Assembly: GCA_902568875.1 (NCBI GenBank)
Contig: CACFSG010000001.1
Coordinates: 44,374 to 108,373 of the forward strand
Direction of reading: 5' to 3'
DNA: 64,000 nt
Origin: an uncultured Pelagibacteraceae bacterium
GTDB taxonomy: Bacteria; Pseudomonadota; Alphaproteobacteria; Pelagibacterales; Pelagibacteraceae
A program made the translations under genes and the position numbers. Shown here piece after piece: positions 1,025 through 19,363 of the stretch; the stretch's first letter is position 1, and every line of letters starts with the position of its first letter. The notes beneath the pieces were generated by a model, which made no database searches, had not been told where the DNA came from, and worked only from the letters and a program-made list of their open reading frames with translations.

Positions 1025-2281
1025 ATGCAAAAATATTCTGTTTTTAGTCTTATTAAAAATGCACTTAAAGGTCATAAAGACTGGGAAGTTGCGTGGAAAG
1101 ATCCAACTCCTAAAGAGGAATATGACGTTATAATTATTGGAGGAGGGGGACATGGTTTAGCTACCGCATATTATTTAGCCAAAGAACACAAAATAACAAA
1201 TGTAGCAATTATAGAAAAAGGATGGATAGGTGGAGGCAATGTTGGAAGAAATACTACAATTATAAGATCAAACTATATGCATGATGAAAATGGTCTATTT
1301 AGTGAATTTGGAATGAATTTATGGAGAAACATGAGTCAAGAATTAAATTTTAACGTAATGTTTTCTCCGAGAGGAATAATTAATTTAGCACATTCTGATG
1401 CTCAAATGAATGTTTTCTCTAGAAGAGGAAATTCAATGAGATTAAATGGAATTGATGCGGTTCTTCTACAAAGAGAAGATGTAAAAAAATTAATTCCAAT
1501 GGCAGATTTTTCAGAAAATGTAAGATTTCCAATTTTTGGTGGTTTAATGCAACCAAGTGCAGGTACAGCTAGACATGATGCAGTTGCTTGGGGATATGCA
1601 CGTCAAGCAGACTCAATGGGAGTAGATATTATTCAAAATTGTGAAGTAAAAGGTTTTGATATTTCTAATGGAAAAATTTTAGGAATAAGAACTTCAAAAG
1701 GCAACATCAAAGCAAAAAAAATTGGCCTTTGTGTTGCTGGAAGTACAAATATTCTAGCAGAAAAATTAAATATAACATTACCTATAGAAACTCATCTTTT
1801 ACAAGCATGTGTTTCAGAACCAATTAAACCAATATTAAATAATGTTGTTACATTTGGAGCAGGACATTTTTATTGCAGCCAATCTGATAAAGGTGAAATG
1901 GTTATGGGTGGAGACCTTGATGGATACAATAGTTATTCTCAAAGAGGAAATCTTCCAACATTACAACATGTATTAACTGAAGGAATAGCAATGTTTCCGT
2001 TTCTAAGTAAATTAAAAATGCTTAGAACATGGGGAGGAATTATGGATATGTCTATGGATGGATCACCTATTATTGATAAGACACATATTAAAGGTTTATA
2101 TTTAAATTGTGGATGGTGTTATGGAGGATTTAAAGCAACTCCTGCATCTGGTTGGACTTTTGCTCATACTATAGCTCAAGATAGACCTCACGAATTAAAT
2201 GCAGGTTATAGTTTAAATAGATTTAGTACTGGGCATTTACTTGATGAAAAAGGTCTTGGAACAAAAACTTGGATTTCATAA
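1025..2281 (+). CDS. soxB: Sarcosine oxidase, beta subunit
   Basis: 418 aa, the usual size for the beta subunit of heterotetrameric sarcosine oxidase. It has an N-terminal FAD-binding Rossmann motif IIIGGGGHGLATAYYL (about residues 36-51). It also has ARHDAVAW around His184, which by family knowledge corresponds to the histidine holding FMN covalently (His173 of the Corynebacterium enzyme). The tetramer oxidises sarcosine to glycine, passes the methyl carbon to THF as methylene-THF, and reduces O2 to H2O2. It is the first gene of soxBDAG, and soxD starts on the base after its stop, so translational coupling is likely. Identification is firm; the substrate (sarcosine) is inferred from the family and the complete operon. 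Confidence 0.95.
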   Translation: MQKYSVFSLIKNALKGHKDWEVAWKDPTPKEEYDVIIIGGGGHGLATAYYLAKEHKITNVAIIEKGWIGGGNVGRNTTIIRSNYMHDENGLFSEFGMNLWRNMSQELNFNVMFSPRGIINLAHSDAQMNVFSRRGNSMRLNGIDAVLLQREDVKKLIPMADFSENVRFPIFGGLMQPSAGTARHDAVAWGYARQADSMGVDIIQNCEVKGFDISNGKILGIRTSKGNIKAKKIGLCVAGSTNILAEKLNITLPIETHLLQACVSEPIKPILNNVVTFGAGHFYCSQSDKGEMVMGGDLDGYNSYSQRGNLPTLQHVLTEGIAMFPFLSKLKMLRTWGGIMDMSMDGSPIIDKTHIKGLYLNCGWCYGGFKATPASGWTFAHTIAQDRPHELNAGYSLNRFSTGHLLDEKGLGTKTWIS

Positions 2282-2548
2282 ATGTTGCATATTAAATGTC
2301 CACACTGCGGATTAAGATCACAAAATGAATTTTCATATGGTGGAGATGCAACAGTTAAAAGGCCAGAACTAAACAAAGAAGTTTCAGATCAAGATTGGGA
2401 TAATTTTGTTTATTTACGTAAAAGTCCAAGAGGAAAACATTTAGAATTATGGCAACACATTTCTGGATGCAGACAATGGATTAAAGTTGAAAGGGATACT
2501 TTAACTCACGAAATATTTAAAACATTAAAAGCAAACGAAGAAGTATAA
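2282..2548 (+). CDS. soxD: Sarcosine oxidase, delta subunit
   Basis: 88 aa, matching the small delta subunit. It opens MLHIKCPHCGLRSQNEFSYG, so Cys6 and Cys9 form a CPHC zinc-binding pair. A later HISGCRQWI segment supplies further potential ligands, as in known SoxD proteins. It has no catalytic role of its own; it is a structural, zinc-binding subunit of the SoxBDAG complex in the cytoplasm. It sits between soxB (no gap) and soxA (2-base gap), the standard gene order. Confidence 0.94.
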   Translation: MLHIKCPHCGLRSQNEFSYGGDATVKRPELNKEVSDQDWDNFVYLRKSPRGKHLELWQHISGCRQWIKVERDTLTHEIFKTLKANEEV

Positions 2549-2550
2549 AA

Positions 2551-5547
2551 ATGTCTGAAAACTTTAGATTAGATAAAGGTGGATTAATAAATAGAAATAA
2601 AAAAATTTCATTTAATTTTAATGGTAAAAAATATTTTGGTTATGAAGGTGATACTTTAGCTTCAGCCTTAATTGCAAATGGAGTTCATTTAGTTGGCAGA
2701 AGTTTTAAATACCATAGGCCTAGAGGTTTTTTTGGAGCAGGCGTAGATGAACCTTATGCAATAGTTCAAATGAATAGAAATAATGAAGTTGATCCCAACG
2801 TAAGAGCAACAGAACAGGATTTATTTGAAGGTTTAGAAGCAAAAAGTGTAAATTGTTGGCCAAATGTAGATTTTGATATTGGTGCAATAAATAATTTTTT
2901 AAATAAATTTTTTCCCGCAGGTTTTTACTATAAAACTTTTATGTGGCCCAAAAGCTTTTGGTATAAGGTTTATGAGCCAATAATTAGAAAAGCAGCAGGT
3001 TTTGGAGCTGCTTCAATTAAACATGATAAAGAAAGATATGAACATAAATACGAATATTGTGATCTATTAATTACAGGATCAGGTCCTTCTGGTTTAGCGA
3101 GCGCATATGCTGCTGCTCAAAATGGAGCAAAAGTAATTTTAGCTGAAGACAAATCTAGGTTTGGTGGAAGTCTTCTTACTAGTGAAGTAACAATTGGAAA
3201 TCAAAGTGGGCAAGAATGGGCAGAAAAAATAATATCTGAACTTAAATTAATGCCGAATGTAGTTGTGAAAAATAGATCTCAAGTTTTTGGCTATTACGAT
3301 CACAATATGCTTGTTATGTCTGAGAGAATTAGCGATCATTTACCTAAAACAAAAAAATATAGTCCTAAACAAAGACTTTGGTACATACGTGCAAAAGAAG
3401 TTATTATTTCGTCTGGATCAATAGAAAGACCTTTAGTTTTTGGAAATAATGATACTCCAGGTGTTATGCTTTCTTCAGCAGCTAAAGAATATTTAAAAAT
3501 TTATGGAGTTTTAGTTGGAAAAAAACCATTAATATTTACAAATAATGATAGTGGATATGAAACTGCAATAGAATTTAAGAAAAATGGAATTGATCCTATA
3601 GTTTTAGACACAAGAAAAAATCCTAATTCAGAAATTATAAAAGAAGCTAAAGACTTAAATATAAACATAAAGTTTTCATATGTTGTTGTAGCAGCCAAAG
3701 GTTATAAAAAAGTTAAGTCCGCAGATATTGCTAAAATATCAGAGGATAAAAAAAATATAAGTAATATTGAAAATATACAATGTGATTGTATTTGTGTCTC
3801 TGGATTTTGGACACCAACAATTCATCTGGCTTCACAATCAGGAAATAAAACTAAATTCAATGAAAAAATAGATGCATTTATACCAAGTCAATCGAAACAA
3901 AAAGAAACAACTCTTGGAGCAGCTAATGGGATTTTTACATTAGAAGAAACATTAAAAACATCTTTTAAAAAAGGAAGTGAGTTATCAAAGCAAATAACAA
4001 AAGAAGATAATAAAGTTTCAGTTCCTACAGTTGTTGAGAAAAAATCTTCCAATCATGATAAATTTTGGTGTGTACCATTACCAGAAGGTAAAAATTATAA
4101 AAGATTTTTAGACTTTCAAAATGATGTTGCTGTTTCTGATATACAGCTTGCTTTACGAGAAGGTTATAGATCAATAGAACATGTTAAAAGATATACAACA
4201 TTAGGAATGGCTACTGATCAAGGTAAGACGAGTAATCTTAATGGATTACAAATGGTTTCAGATGTTGAAAATAAAGTTGTGCCTCAAGTAGGCCATACTA
4301 CATTTAGACCACCTTACACACCAGTTTCAATAGGAGCTATTGTTGGAAGAGAAATTGGAAAACATTCTAAACCAACTAGAAAATCGCCAATGCATTATTG
4401 GCATGAAAAAAATAATGCAGTATTTGTCGATGCTGGTGTTTGGTTGCGTCCAAGATATTACAAACAAGGAAATGAAAATTTATTTGAAGCATCGAAAAGA
4501 GAAGCAAAAAATGTAAGACAAAATGTTGGAGTATGCGATGTAACTACTTTAGGTAAAATTGATATTAAAGGACCTGATTCAGCAGAATTTTTAAATAGAG
4601 TTTATACAAATGCTTGGCTTAAGCTACCAGTTGGAAAAGCAAGATATGGTGTAATGTTAAGAGAAGATGGAATTGTAATGGATGACGGGACAACTACTAG
4701 AATTTCGGAAAATCATTATCACATGACAACTACTACTGCTCAGGCAGCAAACGTACTGTCACATCTAGAATATTATTTACAATTAGTGTGGCCTGAGCTG
4801 AATGTAAATGTAGTTTCGTCTACAGAACAGTGGGCAGGCGCTGCAATAGCTGGACCAAATTCAAGAAATTTACTAAAAAAATTATTTCCAGATTTAAATG
4901 TTTCAAACGAAGGTTTGCCATTTATGGGTTATATGGAAGGTAATTTGTTTGGTGTTAATGCAAAAATTTACAGAATTTCATTTTCTGGTGAACTCGCTTA
5001 TGAAGTAAATGTGGAATCTGATCATGGTAATTATATGTGGGAAAAAATAATGGAGGTTGGAAGAGAGTTTAATATTCAACCATACGGAACGGAGGCATTA
5101 TCAACATTAAGAATTGAAATGGGACACGTTGCTGGATCTGAATTAGATGGACGTACAATTCCATATGATAATTCACTAGACGGATTAGTTAGCAAAAAGA
5201 AAGATTTTATTGGAAAAAGATCTTTAAGCAAAACAGCTTATATAACTAAAGATAGACAGAAAGTAGTCGGTGTTATTCCATTAGATAAAAAAACGAGCAT
5301 CCCAGAAGGATCGTATATAGTTAAAGATGCAAAAGCGAAACTTCCAAACCCTAAATTAGGTCATGTATCCGCATCATGTTGGAGCGTTGAGTATGATAAT
5401 CCATTTTCTCTTGCAATAATTAAAGATGGAAAAAATATGATTGGACAAAAACTTTTTGCAATGTCTCCTTTAAAAAACAAAATAATACCTGTTGAAATAG
5501 TATCATCTCATTATGTTGATCCTAAAGGAGAAAGAGTGAGATCATGA
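2551..5547 (+). CDS. soxA: Sarcosine oxidase, alpha subunit
   Basis: 998 aa, the usual length of the alpha subunit. The N-terminal about 100 residues are the ferredoxin-like fold of the family (YEGDTLASALIANG, FKYHRPRGFFGAG). A dinucleotide-binding domain follows from about residue 170 (LLITGSGPSGLASAYAAAQ). A GcvT-type THF-binding aminomethyltransferase domain spans about residues 610-990 (VGVCDVTTLGKIDIKGP; TEALSTLRIEMGH). This domain captures the methyl carbon on THF. Its last four bases overlap the soxG start (ATGA), so alpha and gamma subunits are probably translationally coupled. Confidence 0.95.
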   Translation: MSENFRLDKGGLINRNKKISFNFNGKKYFGYEGDTLASALIANGVHLVGRSFKYHRPRGFFGAGVDEPYAIVQMNRNNEVDPNVRATEQDLFEGLEAKSVNCWPNVDFDIGAINNFLNKFFPAGFYYKTFMWPKSFWYKVYEPIIRKAAGFGAASIKHDKERYEHKYEYCDLLITGSGPSGLASAYAAAQNGAKVILAEDKSRFGGSLLTSEVTIGNQSGQEWAEKIISELKLMPNVVVKNRSQVFGYYDHNMLVMSERISDHLPKTKKYSPKQRLWYIRAKEVIISSGSIERPLVFGNNDTPGVMLSSAAKEYLKIYGVLVGKKPLIFTNNDSGYETAIEFKKNGIDPIVLDTRKNPNSEIIKEAKDLNINIKFSYVVVAAKGYKKVKSADIAKISEDKKNISNIENIQCDCICVSGFWTPTIHLASQSGNKTKFNEKIDAFIPSQSKQKETTLGAANGIFTLEETLKTSFKKGSELSKQITKEDNKVSVPTVVEKKSSNHDKFWCVPLPEGKNYKRFLDFQNDVAVSDIQLALREGYRSIEHVKRYTTLGMATDQGKTSNLNGLQMVSDVENKVVPQVGHTTFRPPYTPVSIGAIVGREIGKHSKPTRKSPMHYWHEKNNAVFVDAGVWLRPRYYKQGNENLFEASKREAKNVRQNVGVCDVTTLGKIDIKGPDSAEFLNRVYTNAWLKLPVGKARYGVMLREDGIVMDDGTTTRISENHYHMTTTTAQAANVLSHLEYYLQLVWPELNVNVVSSTEQWAGAAIAGPNSRNLLKKLFPDLNVSNEGLPFMGYMEGNLFGVNAKIYRISFSGELAYEVNVESDHGNYMWEKIMEVGREFNIQPYGTEALSTLRIEMGHVAGSELDGRTIPYDNSLDGLVSKKKDFIGKRSLSKTAYITKDRQKVVGVIPLDKKTSIPEGSYIVKDAKAKLPNPKLGHVSASCWSVEYDNPFSLAIIKDGKNMIGQKLFAMSPLKNKIIPVEIVSSHYVDPKGERVRS

Positions 5548-6131
5548 CATCTGTATCAGCATTAAACTATATTCATAAAACAGGTCTTTTTGGAAATCAT
5601 GAAAATAAAAATAAAGAAAATTTAATAAAAATTTCAGAAATTAAAAATTTACTTATTGTTCAAATAGTTCAGTACAAAAATTCTAAAGTTTTATTTGAAA
5701 ATATTGATATTGATACTTTAAAGTTAAAAAATGAACCATTAAATGTAGTTAATAATAATAATACAAGAATTTTATGGAATGGTCCAAAAAATTGGCTTTT
5801 AGTATCAACTAAAAAAAATTTGTTAAAAAATATTACAGAAGTTTTTAAAGAAACAGACTTTGCTGTAACTGACCTATCTCATTCACGAGCTATAATTGAA
5901 TTAGAAGGTAAAGATCTCAAAGAAGTTTTAAAAAAAGGATGTCCATTTAATTTTAATATTTTAGAAAAAAACAATTCAATAAACTCTACGTTTAACAGCA
6001 TAGCATTTACAGTAGATATGTTAGATGATAAGCCTGAAAAAATTAGATTATTTGCTCTTAGAAGTTTTGGAGAGTCTTTATATCATTCAATTACAGATGC
6101 CTCTTTAGAATTTGGTTATCTAGGAAATTAA
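5544..6131 (+). CDS. soxG: Sarcosine oxidase, gamma subunit
   Basis: 195 aa. It is recognised as SoxG by position (fourth gene of soxBDAG) and by WNGPKNWLLVS and TDLSHSRAIIELEGKDLKEVL, which match the gamma-subunit family distantly related to the GcvT fold. The gene overlaps soxA by four bases. The subunit is thought to stabilise the complex rather than catalyse. The gene ends 5 bases before the convergent transporter gene, and I see no clear terminator hairpin between them. Confidence 0.9.
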   Translation: MTSVSALNYIHKTGLFGNHENKNKENLIKISEIKNLLIVQIVQYKNSKVLFENIDIDTLKLKNEPLNVVNNNNTRILWNGPKNWLLVSTKKNLLKNITEVFKETDFAVTDLSHSRAIIELEGKDLKEVLKKGCPFNFNILEKNNSINSTFNSIAFTVDMLDDKPEKIRLFALRSFGESLYHSITDASLEFGYLGN

Positions 6132-11129: not shown

Positions 11130-11195
11130 GATTTTTTTAGTACAAACTTTATTTCAAAATTAAATAAAAATTTCAATAAAATAAATAGTATTTAA

Positions 11196-11215
11196 AAACC
11201 ATATTGGTATGGTTT
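11196..11215 (+). promoter_or_regulatory. Perfect inverted repeat, candidate operator upstream of the M19-like operon
   Basis: AAACCATA-TTGG-TATGGTTT is a perfect 8-bp inverted repeat with a 4-base spacer, ending 16 bases before ATG 11232. Size and symmetry fit a dimeric-repressor site or a small leader hairpin. No regulator gene is adjacent. Confidence 0.45.
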
Positions 11216-11231
11216 ATGATTAATAATCAAA

Positions 11232-12197
11232 ATGAAATTTAGAATAGACAACCTTCAATACTGCAATTGGTCTAGAAAAATTTTTGAAATTAATAGAGAA
11301 GCAGGTCTTGATGCAGTTCATACAACAATTGTATACCATGAAGATTTTGATGAATTATTAAATGAAATAAAAAAATGGGAAAAATTGTTTAAAGATAATT
11401 CAGATTTAATTTTTTTAGGAAAAAGTTTTAAAGATATTGAAAAAGCAAATATTGAGAAAAAAACTGCTATTTTTTTTGGTTTTCAAAATTGTTCTCCAAT
11501 AGAGGATGATATTAATTTAGTTGAAAAAGTTCATGAGCTTGGTTGTAGGTTTATGCAACTTACTTATAATAATCAATCTTTATTGGCAACTGGTTGTTAT
11601 GAAAAAGTTGACAGTGGTGTAACTAATTTTGGTCGTGAAGTTATAAAAGAAATGAATAGAGTTGGTATAGTAGTTGACATGTCTCACTCAGCAGAAAAAA
11701 GTACTTTTGATGCCATAGAAATAAGTGAAAAACCTATTGCAATAACTCATGCAAACCCATCATTTTGGTATAATGTAAAAAGAAATAAATCATCTGATTT
11801 ATTAAAAAGTTTAAGCGATAGTGGAGGTATTTTGGGATTATCACTTTATCCTCATCACTTAAAAGATGGTACAAATTGTACTCTTGATAGTTTTTGTGAG
11901 ATGATAGCTAAAACTGCAGAAATTATAAATGTAAATAAAATTGGAATTGGTTCTGACCTTTGTTTAAATCAACCAGATGAAGTTGTAGAATGGATGAGAA
12001 ATGGAACTTGGTCTAAAAGTAAAAATTATGGCGAAGGTTCAAAAAATAAACCTGGTTTTCCAAAACAACCTGATTGGTTTAAGGACGCAAGGGGATTTGT
12101 AAATTTAGAAAGAGGATTAAAAAAAGTAGGTTTTTCAGATACCGAGATTAAAGGGATACTTGGTAACAATTGGTTTAATTTTTATAAATCTATTTAA
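11232..12197 (+). CDS. Peptidase M19 (membrane dipeptidase)-like protein with substituted metal ligands
   Basis: 321 aa, resembling the renal-dipeptidase (M19) TIM barrel. Recognisable parts are FMQLTYNNQSLLATGC, VVDMSHSAEKSTFDAI (His152), AITHANP (His173) and IGIGSDLCLN (Asp242). Two canonical zinc-site elements are altered. The N-terminal D-G-H-x-D segment reads RIDNLQYCNW, so it lacks the HxD pair. The bridging Glu of the usual VEGG segment is replaced by FGFQNCSPIEDD (Gln85). The protein is therefore unlikely to be an ordinary dipeptidase. It leads a four-gene unit with gaps of 2-3 bases. Fold assignment is good; activity is unknown. Confidence 0.75.
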   Translation: MKFRIDNLQYCNWSRKIFEINREAGLDAVHTTIVYHEDFDELLNEIKKWEKLFKDNSDLIFLGKSFKDIEKANIEKKTAIFFGFQNCSPIEDDINLVEKVHELGCRFMQLTYNNQSLLATGCYEKVDSGVTNFGREVIKEMNRVGIVVDMSHSAEKSTFDAIEISEKPIAITHANPSFWYNVKRNKSSDLLKSLSDSGGILGLSLYPHHLKDGTNCTLDSFCEMIAKTAEIINVNKIGIGSDLCLNQPDEVVEWMRNGTWSKSKNYGEGSKNKPGFPKQPDWFKDARGFVNLERGLKKVGFSDTEIKGILGNNWFNFYKSI

Positions 12198-12199
12198 AA

Positions 12200-13861
12200 A
12201 TGAATATAGAGTTACGAGATCCAAATATAATTATGAAATTATCGAGATTGGGTTCATTCCATCAATCCAAGTTATCATTTTTAAGAAGCTTTTTAAAAGA
12301 GTTTAAAGATTGGGATTATAATAGAGATTTATTTGATTTAGATGATAATGGATTTGGAGTAGCTGTTTACTCTTTTAAAAAGAAAGAAAGAGTTTATTCA
12401 TTAATTTGTTTTGCTAATAAAATTAATGATGATGAAAGATCAGATAGAGTAATTGCTACCAAATGGGATGCAGCTTTTACATTACATGATGGTGTACCAA
12501 GCAAACAAGATATTGAAAGATTAAAAAACGAAGTACCAAAGCAAGAAATTGGTAGATTGTCTTATAAAGAACTGACTTTATCAAGAGCAAATAAATCAGT
12601 GAGAGTATTTAATCATGTTATTGAAAGCCTAAGCAATGGAACTCAGCCTAATTTAAATTTATTAGACAGAGTAGGTTATCTTTATAGAACAACTGCAGTT
12701 TATGGTTCTGGTAAATTTGGATTGGCAGATCGTTTTAGAATAAAAAATAGAGATGAAATAAATGGTCCTTTTAGACTAGAAATGATGTTGGTTTATTTAG
12801 TTAGACAATTTACTTTTGATCAAGTTAATCATGTAGCAAAATATAGGAATCCAAAAAAAGCAGTTAAATTAGATCCTAAAATTTGTAAAAATCTTGGAAT
12901 AGGAAATTCAACTGGTTTAGGTATGGCACCATTTATTGTTAATCACCCCACTTTACTCAACAATTGGATACTTTGTAGGGAAACAGCTTTAAAAAAAATT
13001 AGAGAAATAAAAAAGGTTGAAACTCAAGACAGTGATTTATTTAAAAATTGTGTAAGAAACTCTATTAAAAATATTACTAGTTGGAATACTGAAAGTGATT
13101 TTCAGCTTAGGAAAATTAAATCTTTATTAGAAGATGTAAGAAAATTTTTAGATTTTATAGATAATAAATTTAATTTTGAAATAGACTATCCATTTAATGA
13201 AATTTATTTTTGGTTGGAGAAAGAAACTTGTGAAGAATGTATCGAATATATTGTTTCAATTATGATGGAACCTTATGGAAAAATAATAGAACCACTTGTA
13301 AAAGAAATGAGTTCTGATGAAGAAAAATACTTTAACATTCCAACAAATAGAACAGTCGAGGAATTAAGAACTATTATAAAAAAAAAATACCCAAATGTTC
13401 TTACTATTAACTTTGATAAAAAAGAAAATTATAAAAAATTTTGGTTTATTTCAAAAAATAAAGAAGAGCCTAGATTAGCAGATCGTTTTAAAGAACAAGG
13501 AGCAGACTTAGAGCAACCTCTTGCTATCGCAAGAGATGTTAAAAAATTATATGATAAATTATTGGAATCAAAAAATAGTTTAACGATTGATAAATTTTTA
13601 ATTGAAAATTCAGACTTAAGACATGTTGTAAGAAGAGCTTTTATTATTGAAAAATTTCCTTATTCAGAAATTCAAGATAATACGATTAGTGAAAATATTA
13701 TTCCTATAGATATGCTGAGATTAAAATTATCTTTTTTTGGAGCATTAAAATTTGACCCAAGATCCGATAAGTGGCTTCGAATCAATATGTTTCAGGGTGC
13801 GCCCTTACCTAATGAATTAAAAGATTATGATGAACAGTGGGTTTATAAATCTCATTCTTAA
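12200..13861 (+). CDS. Uncharacterised conserved protein, 553 aa
   Basis: I do not recognise a named family. The protein is soluble, with no signal peptide or membrane segment. Notable stretches are FGVAVYSFKKKERVYSLICF, a block RVGYLYRTTAVYGSGKFGLA followed by DRFRIKN, FRLEMMLVYLVRQFTFDQVN, and a run near residues 230-245 (GIGNSTGLGMAPFIVNHP). The many Arg, Tyr and His residues in these blocks suggest an enzyme, but no catalytic motif is assignable. It is 2 bases after the M19-like gene and 3 bases before the DUF3726-like gene, so the three almost certainly form one transcript. Confidence 0.72.
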   Translation: MNIELRDPNIIMKLSRLGSFHQSKLSFLRSFLKEFKDWDYNRDLFDLDDNGFGVAVYSFKKKERVYSLICFANKINDDERSDRVIATKWDAAFTLHDGVPSKQDIERLKNEVPKQEIGRLSYKELTLSRANKSVRVFNHVIESLSNGTQPNLNLLDRVGYLYRTTAVYGSGKFGLADRFRIKNRDEINGPFRLEMMLVYLVRQFTFDQVNHVAKYRNPKKAVKLDPKICKNLGIGNSTGLGMAPFIVNHPTLLNNWILCRETALKKIREIKKVETQDSDLFKNCVRNSIKNITSWNTESDFQLRKIKSLLEDVRKFLDFIDNKFNFEIDYPFNEIYFWLEKETCEECIEYIVSIMMEPYGKIIEPLVKEMSSDEEKYFNIPTNRTVEELRTIIKKKYPNVLTINFDKKENYKKFWFISKNKEEPRLADRFKEQGADLEQPLAIARDVKKLYDKLLESKNSLTIDKFLIENSDLRHVVRRAFIIEKFPYSEIQDNTISENIIPIDMLRLKLSFFGALKFDPRSDKWLRINMFQGAPLPNELKDYDEQWVYKSHS

Positions 13862-13864
13862 ATT

Positions 13865-14476
13865 ATGAAATCTTTAAGTGAAATAGAAACAACATCAAAA
13901 AGAGCTAGTCGTGCAGTAGGATTTTCATGGGGGATTGCAGAAGAAGTTGGAAAATGTATTAGATTATTAGAGCTATTTGGTTTTCCAGGAATTAAAAATT
14001 TAAATCAATATTATCAAAACAAAAATAAAGAAAATTTTGAAAATCTAAAATTGATTAATCAAAATAACAAATCAAATAAATCAGCTTTTTGTCCTATTAT
14101 CCTTGGAGTAAGTTTTTTGGATCAAATTAAAACACTTGAACCTTTAAAAAAATGCACATTTCAGGGAATAGCATACCCACTTTTATTGTTACCCTTTTTA
14201 AGTAGAAGCTCAGAAATAATAGGAAAAAAAATTTTATTTAAGTTTGATGAAAATGAATTTTTATTAAATTTTAATGTTAACATTTATTCAAATTTTTTAA
14301 AAAAAGAATTTCCATTAATAGCCAAAAATGTTGAAGTAATTTTTTTAGAAAATAAAGATACTTTTAATGACATAGAATGGAAAAATCTTTATAAACTCTC
14401 TGAAGATACTTTTGTCGAAGAAAGTGATAGTTTAAAACAAGGTGCCGCAGGAGCTGGATTGACTGATAATGACTGA
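13865..14476 (+). CDS. DUF3726-like protein
   Basis: 203 aa. The N-terminus SLSEIETTSKRASRAVGFSW followed by GIAEEVGKCIRLLELFG resembles what I recall of the DUF3726 family (Leu-Ser-x-x-Glu-Ile ... Gly-Ile-Ala-Glu-Glu). The rest is poorly conserved by eye, and the C-terminus ends in a Gly/Ala-rich stretch (KQGAAGAGLTDND). It is probably cytoplasmic and of unknown function. Its stop overlaps the next small gene (ATG at 14469, TGA at 14474). Family membership is from memory; a profile search is needed to confirm it. Confidence 0.65.
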   Translation: MKSLSEIETTSKRASRAVGFSWGIAEEVGKCIRLLELFGFPGIKNLNQYYQNKNKENFENLKLINQNNKSNKSAFCPIILGVSFLDQIKTLEPLKKCTFQGIAYPLLLLPFLSRSSEIIGKKILFKFDENEFLLNFNVNIYSNFLKKEFPLIAKNVEVIFLENKDTFNDIEWKNLYKLSEDTFVEESDSLKQGAAGAGLTDND

Positions 14477-14630
14477 AGATAATCAACTTAATGCAAAAGA
14501 CTTAAAAGATTTTGATAATATTTGTGAAGAATGTAAAAAAGAAGAAGAGACTGTTTTCCAGAATCTTGTTTTAACAGGCTATAAACTTTGTAAATCTTGT
14601 CGAATTTCAAAAACTATTTTTCCAATTTAA
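14469..14630 (+). CDS. 53-aa double-CxxC (zinc-ribbon-like) protein
   Basis: This ORF is below the track's length cut-off. It starts at ATG 14469, eight bases inside the DUF3726-like gene, and runs to TAA 14628-14630. The product begins MTEDNQLNAKDLKDFDNICE and contains ICEECKKEEE and YKLCKSCRIS, two CxxC pairs about 20 residues apart, the spacing of a small zinc ribbon. The overlapping start and the position at the end of the M19-like operon support it being a real gene. It ends by overlapping the convergent Yip1-like gene by four bases. Confidence 0.62.
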   Translation: MTEDNQLNAKDLKDFDNICEECKKEEETVFQNLVLTGYKLCKSCRISKTIFPI

Positions 14631-15199: not shown

Positions 15200-16558
15200 T
15201 TATCCTTTTACAACTTCTCTTGTATTAGCATTGAAAGATTCTTTAAATGGAATATCAACTACAACAGCGTCTACAGGTGTTCCTGGTTTGTCTGAGTATT
15301 TTTCAGGTAAATGAACTTTGTATTTAGTTCCAGTTTTACCTTTTGGAAATCCATTAGAATTTAAAGTTCCATCAAACGGCACATATCCCATTGCTATATT
15401 TGTTTTTTTTTCAGGATGGTACCAAGGGGAAGTTATAAAACCAACGGGATCTCCTCCATCAGCATTCGAAATTAACCAAAAATCCGGGGCATAGTCCTCT
15501 ATTGGTTTTCCACCTAGTTCAAGACCAACTAATTGGAGTTTATAAGGTTTTTTCCCTGCTTTAATTTCTGTATGCATTTTTTCTAAAGCCGCTTTACCAA
15601 CATAATCAGCTGTTTTATTCCATTCACCTTTTCCAGATAAAGAAACTTGATAACCTAAATTACATTGAAAAGGATTGTGTTGTTGATCCATATCTTGTCC
15701 CCATGAAAGAATTCCTGCTTGAATTCTTCTATGGTGTGCAGGAGCAATAACCATTAAATTATGTTTTTTTCCAGCTTTAAGAACAGCATTCCACATATCA
15801 TCAGCATATAAAGTTGCATTTCTTAAATATATTTCATAACCAGCTTCACCTGAGAAACCTGATTGAGAAATAACACAACTTCTTCCAGCAACTTTAACCT
15901 CAGCCAAACCATAAAAAGGCATGTTTTCTAAATCAATTTGATCACCTAATAAATCTTTCATTAGTGCTTTTGATTTAGGTCCTTGAATTTGCACTGGACA
16001 AGCATCAATTTCCTCTACAGTACAATTAAATCTGCCATCAGCATTAACACCTTGTAGATACATACCAATATCAGAGTCTGATAAAGAAAACCAAAACTCA
16101 TCTTTTGAAATTCTAAGAAGAATTGGATCATTTAAAACTCCACCATAAGCATTACATAAAATTACATATCTAGCTCTCATAGGAGAAATTTTTGTTGCAT
16201 CTCTTGTAATTACATAATCTGTAAACTTTTCTGCATCAGGACCTTTAACTCTTATTTGTCTTTCAACAGCCACGTTCCACATAGTAACATGGTTAACAAT
16301 TGCATCATATTCTACCATTGCGCCACCATCTTCTGGTTTTACGTATCCTCTTGGATGGTAAATACGATTGTAAACTGTTGCTCTCCAACAACCTGCTTGC
16401 ATTGATAAATGCCAGTAAGGAGATTTTCTTACTCTTGTTGAAATTAACATTTCAACTTTAGTAGGTCCGCTTTGTCTTAAGTTATATGGAACTTCACGAT
16501 CTGATTGATCAACTGAAGTTGCGTGTTTTAGTTTAGTATAGTCAAATTCATTAGACAT
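15200..16558 (-). CDS. THF-dependent aminomethyl/demethylase of the GcvT superfamily (DmdA/LigM-like)
   Basis: 452 aa, a GcvT-fold protein. Visible motifs: EMLISTRVRKSPYW near the N-terminus (as in DmdA), VERQIRVKGPDAEKFTDYV, VQIQGPKSKALMKDLLGD, SGFSGEAGYEIYLRNA and ILSWGQDMDQQHNPFQCNLG. These resemble DMSP demethylase, but the protein is about 80 residues longer and has a distinct C-terminus (YSDKPGTPVDAVVVDIPFKE) more like LigM/DesA-type O-demethylases. It overlaps the start of a methylene-THF reductase gene, so it probably moves a methyl group to THF. The donor substrate is unknown, and I do not call it DmdA. Confidence 0.8.
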   Translation of the reverse strand: MSNEFDYTKLKHATSVDQSDREVPYNLRQSGPTKVEMLISTRVRKSPYWHLSMQAGCWRATVYNRIYHPRGYVKPEDGGAMVEYDAIVNHVTMWNVAVERQIRVKGPDAEKFTDYVITRDATKISPMRARYVILCNAYGGVLNDPILLRISKDEFWFSLSDSDIGMYLQGVNADGRFNCTVEEIDACPVQIQGPKSKALMKDLLGDQIDLENMPFYGLAEVKVAGRSCVISQSGFSGEAGYEIYLRNATLYADDMWNAVLKAGKKHNLMVIAPAHHRRIQAGILSWGQDMDQQHNPFQCNLGYQVSLSGKGEWNKTADYVGKAALEKMHTEIKAGKKPYKLQLVGLELGGKPIEDYAPDFWLISNADGGDPVGFITSPWYHPEKKTNIAMGYVPFDGTLNSNGFPKGKTGTKYKVHLPEKYSDKPGTPVDAVVVDIPFKESFNANTREVVKG

Positions 16559-17279
16559 ATTTGTTCTCCATCAACCACTTGTTTGTTTCCTTCAAGCCGC
16601 CGAATGTATAAATGTGGAAAAAATCAGTATGCGATTTAATTTTTCCAATTAAATCATTAGGGTCTTTAGGTTTCAATAAATCTAATGCCTTAGTAAAGTT
16701 AGATTTAAGAAAGTTTAAGGAATTTTTTGCACCAACAATATTAGCAAATTTAATTAAGCTAGATATTTTTAGAGGCCCAGTAATTCCCACATGAACTGGT
16801 ATGCTTTGTTTAGAGATAAAATCTATAATAGGCTGCGGATCTAATAACCATTGCGTTACAATGTAGTCAGCGTAAGGCTTTTTATCTATCATAGCTTTTT
16901 CTAAATCTGAATCGGATATATCAGGACTCCCCTCCGGGTGTCCAGCGATTCCTATCTTCATCTTCTCAAAATAACCTGTTTCTAAAAGTTGAAATGAGCT
17001 GTCAAATTTTCCAACTGGTTCTCGACCTCCACCAATTACTAAAACTTGTTTAACTCCTCCATCTTTACATCGAGAAACGTAATCTTTTAGCTCTTTTTCA
17101 TCACTTATTGATCTTGCTGGAAAATGGGGAACAGGATTAAAGCCTTTCTTAATAAGCTCAACTGCTTGTTGAGCTGTCTCTTTATAATCTCCACCTGGAA
17201 GCATTGTAATATAAACATCACTTACCTTTGGGACTGTTTCAAGGTCAGTTTGTGGACTAATTTCCAAAGAAAAATTCAT
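16551..17279 (-). CDS. metF: Short methylenetetrahydrofolate reductase-like protein
   Basis: 242 aa; classical MetF is about 290-300 aa, so this is a compact member. Recognisable features are VYITMLPGGDYKETAQQAVE, FNPVPHFPARSISDEKEL, QVLVIGGGREPVG and the substrate/FAD segment YIVTQWLLDP with PVHVGITGPL. It interconverts 5-methyl-THF and 5,10-methylene-THF with a flavin. Its stop overlaps the start of the GcvT-like gene by eight bases, implying coupled synthesis. In this context it may run in the oxidative direction, processing methyl-THF made by the neighbour (inference). Confidence 0.85.
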   Translation of the reverse strand: MNFSLEISPQTDLETVPKVSDVYITMLPGGDYKETAQQAVELIKKGFNPVPHFPARSISDEKELKDYVSRCKDGGVKQVLVIGGGREPVGKFDSSFQLLETGYFEKMKIGIAGHPEGSPDISDSDLEKAMIDKKPYADYIVTQWLLDPQPIIDFISKQSIPVHVGITGPLKISSLIKFANIVGAKNSLNFLKSNFTKALDLLKPKDPNDLIGKIKSHTDFFHIYTFGGLKETNKWLMENKYV

Positions 17280-17359
17280 TTTTTAGATCATTATCCTTTT
17301 TGAAAATAGTGTCAAAGAAATTCAACAAGAACTCCAAACGAAATTTGTTGCCAAAAATA

Positions 17360-18574
17360 ATGCTCATGATAATTTTTTTTGTGGATCAAAATCATAAAAA
17401 TAAAACCCTCTCAGAAATTTTAGACATTCAAAAATTAAAAGATGTAGATAAACAAATAGAGGCTGCAAATGGCCTTCCAAATGAGTGCTATATAAGTGAA
17501 GATTATTTAGCTTATGAAAGAGATAAGATTTTTTGTGACAAATGGACTGTCGTAGGAGTTGGAAGTTCAATTCCAAATGCCGGTGATGCAAAACCCTATA
17601 ATCTGCTCGGGATTCCTCTGATAATTATTAGAAGTAAAGATATGAAGATTCGAGTATTTCATAATGTTTGCAGTCATAGAGGTTTTAAACTTTTAGACAA
17701 ACCATGTAATTTAAAAAATGTTATTAGATGCCCATACCACTCTTGGTCTTATGACTTTGCAGGAAATCTTGTTGCAACACCTCATATTGGAGGACTTGAT
17801 ATTCATCAGTTTGATAAATTTGATAAAAATAAAAGTAATTTAAAAGAAGTTAAAACTAAAGTTTGGATGGATATTATTTTTGTGAATATTAATTCAAATG
17901 AAATCGATTTTAATAAATATATTAAACCTCTTGAACAAAGATGGTCTAAATTCATTAATAATGATGATCATAATTTATTAGTTCATTCAAATGATTACGG
18001 TTATTTTAATTTAGAAGTAAAATGTAATTGGAAATTTGCTATTGAAAATTATTGTGAAAGTTATCATTTACCAACAATCCATCCTGAATTAAATAAAGTT
18101 TCAAATATTAATGATCATTATCATATTCAAGGTTTACCAAATAGATTTGCTGGTCAAGGAAGTAAAAAGTATGAGCAACCAGTAAAAGGAAATAAAAAAT
18201 TTAATACTTTTTCTAATTGGGAAAAAAGTATGTTGAAAAATTCAGAGTATATTGCGCTGTTTCCAAATGTAATGATAGGCTTACATATAGATCATTTTTA
18301 TGTTTTTTGGTTAGAACCTCTTGGAATGGATAAAACCAAGGAACATATGCAAATATATTATGTTGGTGATGAAAGTGCTAATGGTGAAGAATTAAAAGAA
18401 TTAAGAAAAGAAAATTCAAAATTTTGGAAAAATGTCATGCTAGAAGATGTAAGTGCTATTGAAGGTATGCAAGATGGACGACATTCTCCAGTTTATAATG
18501 GAGGAAACTTTTCTCCTGCAATGGATCAACCAACTCATCAATTTCATAAATGGGTTGCTAACAGTTTAATATAA
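17360..18574 (+). CDS. Rieske non-heme iron oxygenase, alpha-subunit type
   Basis: The track start (17300) is TTG; ATGs at 17360 and 17366 or a GTG at 17381 are better candidates, giving about 400 aa. The Rieske [2Fe-2S] site is VCSHRGFKLL plus RCPYHSWSYDFAGN (C-x-H ... C-x2-H). The mononuclear Fe site is ENYCESYHLPTIHPEL, and the C-terminal segment is GGNFSPAMDQPTHQFHKW. This is the choline-monooxygenase/GbcA/ring-hydroxylase type. With nearby GcvT-type enzymes, oxidative N-demethylation of a methylated amine is plausible, but substrate and reductase are not visible. It opens a long co-directional run. Confidence 0.87.
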   Translation: MLMIIFFVDQNHKNKTLSEILDIQKLKDVDKQIEAANGLPNECYISEDYLAYERDKIFCDKWTVVGVGSSIPNAGDAKPYNLLGIPLIIIRSKDMKIRVFHNVCSHRGFKLLDKPCNLKNVIRCPYHSWSYDFAGNLVATPHIGGLDIHQFDKFDKNKSNLKEVKTKVWMDIIFVNINSNEIDFNKYIKPLEQRWSKFINNDDHNLLVHSNDYGYFNLEVKCNWKFAIENYCESYHLPTIHPELNKVSNINDHYHIQGLPNRFAGQGSKKYEQPVKGNKKFNTFSNWEKSMLKNSEYIALFPNVMIGLHIDHFYVFWLEPLGMDKTKEHMQIYYVGDESANGEELKELRKENSKFWKNVMLEDVSAIEGMQDGRHSPVYNGGNFSPAMDQPTHQFHKWVANSLI

Positions 18575-18575
18575 A

Positions 18576-18983
18576 ATGAAAATAATTTTAATAATGGGAT
18601 TACCCGGTGCAGGCAAAACAACTTTGGCAAATGAATTATCCAAATTAATTAAATGTAAAAGATTAAATGCAGATGAAATCAGAAAAGCTGCTAATGATTG
18701 GGATTTTTCAGAAGAAGGCAGAACAAGACAAGCAAAAAGAATGTCAGATGAGGCATTAAAATTAAAAAATGGAGGCAATAATGTTATTGCTGATTTTATT
18801 TGTCCAACACCAGAAGCAAGAAATTTGTTTCCTGCAGATTATATTATTTGGGTAGATACAATTGAAGAAGGAAGGTTTGATGATACTAACAAGATGTTTG
18901 TAAAACCCGATAAGTATGACTTTCATGTTACTACGCAAGATGCTAAAAACTGGGCACCAAAAATATATAAGGAGATAAAATAA
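18576..18983 (+). CDS. APS-kinase (CysC)-like P-loop kinase, short form
   Basis: 135 aa versus about 200 for CysC. Walker A is MGLPGAGKTTLANEL (residues 7-21); LNADEIRKAANDWDFSEEGR and NNVIADFICPTPEARN correspond to the APS-kinase D-x-x-R and I-x-x-F-I-S/C-P regions. It phosphorylates an unknown acceptor. It begins 1 base after the Rieske gene's stop and overlaps the nucleotidyltransferase start. SAR11 relatives are generally held to lack assimilatory sulfate reduction, and no other cys gene is near, so APS need not be the substrate. Confidence 0.8.
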   Translation: MKIILIMGLPGAGKTTLANELSKLIKCKRLNADEIRKAANDWDFSEEGRTRQAKRMSDEALKLKNGGNNVIADFICPTPEARNLFPADYIIWVDTIEEGRFDDTNKMFVKPDKYDFHVTTQDAKNWAPKIYKEIK

Positions 18984-19363
18984 TGGCTTACGAATGGGAT
19001 GATAAAAAACCAACTGCTCAAATGTTAGGAAGATGGCAACCTTTTCACGATGGTCATTATACTTTATTCAAAGAAATAATTAAAAAGACAGGCCAAGTTT
19101 GTATTCAAATTAGAGATGTTCAGGGTGTTGATGATAATCCGTTTGATTTTGAAACTGTAAAAAAGAATATTGAAGATAGGCTTAATCCAGAATTTGAAGG
19201 GCGTTTTAAAATCATGTTAGTGCCAAATATTACCAACATTTGTTATGGAAGGGGAGTTGGTTATAAAATTGAAGAGATAGTATTACCTGAGGAAATACAA
19301 AAAATTTCAGCCACTAAAATTAGAGCTAAGATGAGAGAAGAAGGTAAGCTAAAAAAATCATAA
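18983..19363 (+). CDS. Small nucleotidylyltransferase (HxGH superfamily)
   Basis: 126 aa, a minimal adenylyl/cytidylyltransferase fold. The nucleotide-binding motif is MLGRWQPFHDGHYTLF (H-x-G-H as HDGH) near residues 15-30, and the C-terminal I-S-x-T-x-I-R motif is ISATKIRAKM. Both catalytic signatures are intact. The start overlaps the kinase stop by one base (TAATG), which suggests the two act together on one phosphorylated intermediate. Substrate unknown; alternatives include NadM-like or sugar/polyol-phosphate transferases. Confidence 0.8.
   Translation: MAYEWDDKKPTAQMLGRWQPFHDGHYTLFKEIIKKTGQVCIQIRDVQGVDDNPFDFETVKKNIEDRLNPEFEGRFKIMLVPNITNICYGRGVGYKIEEIVLPEEIQKISATKIRAKMREEGKLKKS

Follow-up and report, generated by a model that had tools for sequence, protein, structure and literature searches.

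Homarine (N-methylpicolinate) is a widespread phytoplankton osmolyte and a common algal compound, and SAR11 is among the most abundant marine bacterial groups. In 2026, Ferrer-Gonzalez and colleagues reportedly described a homarine operon, homABCDER, made up of a regulator and five structural genes; it was placed in Rhodobacterales, SAR11 and SAR116, and its product was given as N-methylglutamate. In the trigonelline (tgn) route, the ring is opened by a flavin monooxygenase pair to give an aldehyde and an N-formyl group. Here, we analyzed a 64,000-nucleotide stretch of DNA from an uncultured Pelagibacteraceae bacterium (GenBank assembly GCA_902568875.1, contig CACFSG010000001.1, positions 44,374 to 108,373 of the forward strand; referred to here as ‘the window’), and in it three adjacent genes encoding an M19-family hydrolase (‘M19’), an orphan protein of 553 amino acids (aa; ‘P553’) and a DUF3726 protein. 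We propose that these genes are the SAR11 form of a proteobacterial operon (LysR, aldehyde dehydrogenase, M19, P553, DUF3726, Ldh_2) that most likely degrades homarine.

This operon resembles the reported homABCDER in its roseobacter gene set (a regulator and five structural genes) and its presence in SAR11, and probably in a link to mgd-type (N-methylglutamate dehydrogenase) genes; the window genome differs in that its cluster holds just three of the five structural genes, with no regulator linked to them. The likeness to the trigonelline route is one of analogy and would comprise a substrate of the N-methylpyridinium type, a ring that opens to give an N-formyl group and an aldehyde, and steps by an aldehyde dehydrogenase and a hydrolase; however, that route uses a flavin monooxygenase pair, while here the sole ring-opening candidate is P553 with DUF3726.

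An accessory cassette of three genes and its empty sites

The features considered here are as follows (positions in the window):

11232-12197, + strand: M19-family hydrolase gene, 321 aa (Pfam PF01244)
12200-13861, + strand: P553 orphan gene, 553 aa, the distinctive core gene of the cassette
13865-14476, + strand: DUF3726 gene, 203 aa (PF12525)
14469-14630, + strand: CxxC53 gene, encoding a 53-aa CxxC...CxxC protein; a resident neighbour, outside the cassette
11130-11231, no strand: intergenic region between purE (- strand) and M19 (+ strand), on the start side of the cassette, which holds an inverted repeat
1025-6131, + strand: sarcosine-oxidase/N-methylglutamate-dehydrogenase-type (sox/mgd-type) operon (soxBDAG or mgdABCD), ~5 kb upstream of the cassette; it may supply the following step, N-demethylation

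The original prediction, made from the letters of the window, described four genes separated by 2-3 bases or overlapping, and on re-reading its coordinates were exact: all four open reading frames are on the plus strand, M19 and P553 are 2 bases apart, P553 and DUF3726 are 3 bases apart, and DUF3726 overlaps CxxC53 by 8 bases. We found that M19, P553 and DUF3726 form a discrete accessory cassette of ~3.2 kb, and that CxxC53 merely overlaps its end. P553 is present in 98 of 150 relatives of the same order and M19 in 95; the two co-occur in 95 of the 98 P553-positive order members and are adjacent in SAR11, and M19 was found in none of the P553-negative genomes listed. Only three genomes carry P553 without an M19 match (G084, G134 and G141), and in two of these the P553 gene is partial (G084) or begins at contig base 21 (G141).

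In the congeners examined, the cassette lies between purE and CxxC53. The CxxC53 gene is carried by 68 genomes, all of the window’s own genus (none was found outside it), and 14 of these lack P553. In all seven P553-less congeners that were fetched, purE and CxxC53 are direct neighbours, ~50-100 bases apart, with the same flanks (‘empty sites’). Because CxxC53 is kept beside purE in congeners without the cassette, we consider it a resident neighbour, and the empty sites together with its presence without the cassette rule it out as a component of the system; the protein itself gave only a sub-threshold zinc-finger match. A single four-gene unit of undescribed function that includes the CxxC micro-protein, as the original prediction had it, could draw on the tight spacing and the DUF3726/CxxC53 overlap; with the fourth gene refuted by the empty sites and not found beyond the genus, however, we regard such a unit as very improbable. 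What stands of that prediction is a tightly packed and retained metabolic unit of three genes that travel together and whose order is kept in three proteobacterial classes: M19, P553 and DUF3726, but not CxxC53, are neighbours in Alpha-, Beta- and Gammaproteobacteria. A clean SAR11 empty site for this cassette is new here.

The same prediction also pointed to a perfect inverted repeat upstream, and an 8-bp repeat (AAACCATA-TTGG-TATGGTTT, 11196-11203/11208-11215) is indeed present between purE and M19. Its perfect form was kept in none of ~100 distinct upstream regions from relatives and was seen only in the window; it was rejected as an operator, and we do not take it as evidence of regulation because it is not conserved.

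The three genes lie in a conserved operon elsewhere in the Proteobacteria

Outside SAR11, the operon runs in the order LysR, aldehyde dehydrogenase, M19, a BCCT or betaine-type ATP-binding cassette (ABC) transporter in some cases, P553, DUF3726 and an Ldh_2-family oxidoreductase, with the betaine ABC genes, when present, further on. Its hosts include Phaeobacter (P. inhibens DSM 17395 among them), Ruegeria sp. TM1040, Aliiroseovarius, Sulfitobacter, Tritonibacter, Aminobacter, Pseudomonas and Caballeronia, and in these examples M19 is annotated as ‘membrane dipeptidase’ and P553 as ‘hypothetical protein’. We surveyed 42 P553 loci and counted neighbours within 6.5 kb of P553, which gave M19 in 40, aldehyde dehydrogenase in 22, LysR in 18, Ldh_2 in 15 and a transporter of the BCCT or betaine ABC type in 21; DUF3726 was recognised in 38 of the 42, and the remaining four have an open reading frame of 172-246 aa after P553. 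Across loci with kept gene order, in three classes of Proteobacteria, P553 is 24-60% identical to the window copy. It was further found in 39 of 289 class genomes, in 22 of 299 phylum genomes (non-alphaproteobacteria among them) and in 168 plasmid records (Sinorhizobium, Phaeobacter, Aminobacter, Vibrio, Caballeronia, Pseudomonas and others); no P553 relative was found in the viral contigs scanned. The best curated relatives of the operon’s aldehyde dehydrogenase are 2,5-dioxovalerate and alpha-ketoglutarate-semialdehyde dehydrogenases, with scores far below the cut-offs.

The three genes occupy different sites in a sister SAR11 family, where they are flanked by a 477-aa aldehyde dehydrogenase gene and, in some genomes, by a gene for an Ldh_2-family enzyme; other flanks there are a sox/mgd-type operon or gmaS plus mgsABC (methylamine/N-methylglutamate genes, named from sequence) and a polyamine-type ABC transporter. 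No aldehyde dehydrogenase or Ldh_2 gene is linked to the Pelagibacter cassette; only general paralogues were found (~30-41% identity), which also occur in P553-negative genomes.

Sox/mgd-type genes lie in 6 of the 42 survey loci, and such an operon directly adjoins the cassette in locus L034 and the P553 operon in Ruegeria sp. TM1040 and Aliiroseovarius. The order in Ruegeria sp. TM1040 is sox/mgd-type operon, AraC-type regulator, LysR, aldehyde dehydrogenase, M19, BCCT, P553, DUF3726 and Ldh, with P553 as RS02335 and DUF3726 as RS02340 within TM1040_RS02320-RS02345, and the order in Aliiroseovarius is nearly the same. The AraC-type regulator TmaR has been linked to the mgd operon in a paper on trimethylamine regulation, and the same paper mentions a recent report of a role for Mgd in homarine catabolism, for which it cites Ferrer-Gonzalez et al. 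2026, Nat Microbiol 11:1531 (PMC13390433). The upstream operon in the window matches TIGR01373, TIGR01372 and TIGR01375, the last of these below its cut-off. Just upstream of the window (G000:C1 34000-47500; L265), a Tmm-like trimethylamine monooxygenase, a formate-tetrahydrofolate ligase and a betaine-type ABC transporter can be read from the sequence. With Tmm-like, one-carbon (C1) and betaine ABC genes upstream of the sox/mgd-type operon, the cassette therefore lies in a methylated-amine/C1 neighbourhood.

Homarine and other candidate substrates

We infer homarine as the substrate from gene context (the regulator with its five structural genes, transporters for betaines, the mgd-type link and the range of hosts), set beside the reported homABCDER. 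Also in favour, Ruegeria pomeroyi, which may or may not carry P553, removes homarine within hours (PMC12817926). The same transporter and demethylation logic would serve an operon that degrades another small betaine, such as proline betaine, trigonelline, beta-alanine betaine or a carnitine-like compound. BCCT, ProXWV and PotABCD-type transporters are all found beside P553, which means that the substrate cannot be told from the transporter, and two P553 copies in some genomes suggest more than one substrate. Nevertheless, homarine agrees better with a set of five structural genes and LysR, with the mgd-type link and with hosts from the sea, and the flavin monooxygenase of the trigonelline route was not seen beside P553 operons; we regard another betaine as an unlikely substrate. 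Three genomes (G297, G395 and G594) each carry two full-length P553 paralogues, and this pairing suggests sub-functions within the family.

Several points weigh against homarine degradation. The substrate is predicted from gene context, and homABCDER was matched by its reported description and the number of letters in its name. A linked aldehyde dehydrogenase is absent from about half of the survey loci, and a tree without named references did not separate sox from mgd for the upstream operon. Finally, Sinorhizobium pSymB members (24-29% P553 identity) stand with a polyamine-type ABC transporter, an aminotransferase and a succinate-semialdehyde dehydrogenase; because these neighbours differ, the P553 family may serve several substrates, and the distant pSymB set probably has a different one. 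In Sinorhizobium meliloti pSymB (L226, 11944-22744), where P553 is 24% identical to that of the window, the P553-DUF3726-M19 set is accompanied by IclR, a PotABCD-type transporter, an aminotransferase, succinate-semialdehyde dehydrogenase and RidA.

Notwithstanding these points, homarine degradation remains our preferred reading, and the original claim of an undescribed system is probably wrong, as the hom operon for homarine, published in 2026, agrees with the gene context and the range of hosts. In the collection of papers searched, DUF3726, PA5396, PA5397 and homABCDER returned nothing beyond the citation in PMC13390433.

A possible route from homarine to glutamate

Homarine would be taken up by a betaine transporter and converted by the operon to N-methylglutamate, which a Mgd-type dehydrogenase would then convert to glutamate; the proposed balance (homarine + O2 + 2 H2O + net 2[H] -> N-methylglutamate + formate) is atom- and redox-balanced. 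The division of labour among the enzymes is proposed by analogy, and we infer it less firmly than the substrate. The Ldh_2 enzyme would reduce the pyridinium ring, P553 with DUF3726 would cleave the C5-C6 bond to give an N-formyl group and an aldehyde that the aldehyde dehydrogenase would oxidise, M19 would remove the N-formyl group and Ldh_2 would reduce the remaining double bond. In Pelagibacter, unlinked paralogues may carry out the aldehyde dehydrogenase and Ldh_2 steps.

P553 and its probable partner DUF3726

P553 had been predicted to lie outside known families, and this was borne out: neither the single sequence nor a diverse profile matched a family in Pfam, NCBIfam, PHROGs or the PDB (sequence and profile searches). 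Weak matches, at E 0.04 or worse, to beta-lactamase GES, CesT and V-ATPase subunit C were dismissed as chance. An alignment of 49 diverse members has one invariant His (H249), zero invariant Cys and about fifteen nearly invariant Arg, and no recognisable cofactor motif was seen in it. The AlphaFold model, built with 42 close SAR11 homologues as input, reached a predicted local distance difference test (pLDDT) score of 62.5 and fell below 50 in the most conserved stretches. A Foldseek search with this model gave no match, but the model is too poor for that result to be meaningful.

DUF3726, on the contrary, could be placed. The window protein matches its family (PF12525, E 5.6e-22), and its AlphaFold model (pLDDT 83.8) had Ldh_2 enzymes as 17 of its 17 best Foldseek matches in the PDB (best E 6.9e-3, prob 1.00). 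By hhalign, a 48-protein DUF3726 profile aligned with the operon’s own Ldh family at E 2.6e-6, against E values of at least 0.08 for the controls (aldehyde dehydrogenase, M19, P553, reversed and shuffled). A gammaproteobacterial DUF3726 homologue (L211) matched Ldh_2 directly, just below the cut-off (E 6.1e-9; 35.9 bits vs. 38.8); this match stops at profile position 137 of 333 and the window DUF3726 has 203 aa, so the likeness is not full-length. Because of these predicted-fold matches, the profile-profile alignment and the direct L211 match, we classify DUF3726 by predicted structure and profile as a shortened, degenerate relative of the Ldh_2 family (PF02615; type-2 malate/lactate dehydrogenase, ureidoglycolate dehydrogenase, YiaK), a relationship that is new here. 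The predicted fold and the profile are shared over the first ~140 positions; DUF3726 differs in its length of ~200 aa, in keeping the N-terminal part only and in a conserved Gly-rich tail (GAGAGLTDND in SAR11). It is probably not an active dehydrogenase and probably serves as a partner subunit of P553. This link is the first structural handle on the domain. The profile and structure searches proposed with the original prediction led to a predicted fold for DUF3726 but not for P553.

By analogy, P553 is a candidate ring-opening enzyme. We suggest, tentatively and with more doubt than confidence, that P553 and its degenerate Ldh_2 partner may be an enzyme of a new type that opens the ring of N-methylpyridinium compounds and is common in ocean bacteria. 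Such an enzyme would lack any recognisable site for flavin, iron-sulphur or metal, and would have no relative with a solved structure or a profile.

An M19 protein with altered metal ligands

M19 gives a full-length profile match to Peptidase_M19 (PF01244, E 1.7e-69, residues 16-317), and it shares with the renal dipeptidases (PDB 1itq, 3id7, 2i5g) the positions of His152, His173, Asp242 and Arg184, which are kept in 45 relatives. It differs at the HxD motif, which is LxY (Leu8/Tyr10), and at the bridging Glu, which is Gln85, and both replacements are all but fixed in the same relatives; the predicted loss of canonical metal ligands was therefore correct, with His-His-Asp retained. Out of the binuclear zinc ligand set (HxD, Glu, His, His), only both His are kept, and with LxY for HxD and Gln for Glu we expect no canonical binuclear zinc site. 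Judged by its residues, an M19 subfamily that lacks HxD and the bridging Glu but has His-His-Asp is new here. The protein, with its predicted renal-dipeptidase fold, is a probable N-acyl/N-formyl hydrolase.

The closest structure in the PDB is 2i5g (E 1.5e-60), which we take to be the Pseudomonas aeruginosa dgc-operon protein, and this raises the prospect of a glycine-betaine/dimethylglycine accessory cassette like the dipeptidase and hypothetical-protein pair before dgcAB in Pseudomonas and Vibrio. In V. natriegens and P. aeruginosa, pepD and a gene for a hypothetical protein lie ahead of dgcAB as such a pair (PMC12093977), and sox-type genes lie 5 kb from the cassette here. However, no dgcA or dgcB homologue is annotated beside P553 in the annotated operons read, and dimethylglycine demethylation calls for neither an aldehyde dehydrogenase nor an Ldh_2 enzyme. 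P553 members moreover match zero Pfam families, including DUF5943, to which the dgc hypothetical protein presumably belongs. A dimethylglycine function is thus highly unlikely, and homarine degradation is preferred.

Genes downstream of the cassette site

Beside the variable cassette site, an overlapping pair of GcvT-like (452 aa) and MTHFR-like (242 aa) genes (15200-17279, - strand) is present in nearly all congeners examined, at 79-94% identity. A Rieske ring-hydroxylating oxygenase gene (17300-18574, + strand) occupies another variable site, where relatives have a ~405-aa gene, betaine-type ABC genes or a ~208-aa open reading frame instead. Next to it (18576-19363, + strand), an APS-kinase-like (135 aa) and a cytidylyltransferase-like (126 aa) open reading frame overlap by one base; these are separate small genes conserved among relatives.

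Implications

P553 represents a widespread enzyme family without a model in the main databases searched, and its reaction is a concrete biochemical question. If the assignment to homarine is true, this accessory cassette of three genes, with its clean empty sites, would provide a sharp genetic marker for homarine-using SAR11 strains.

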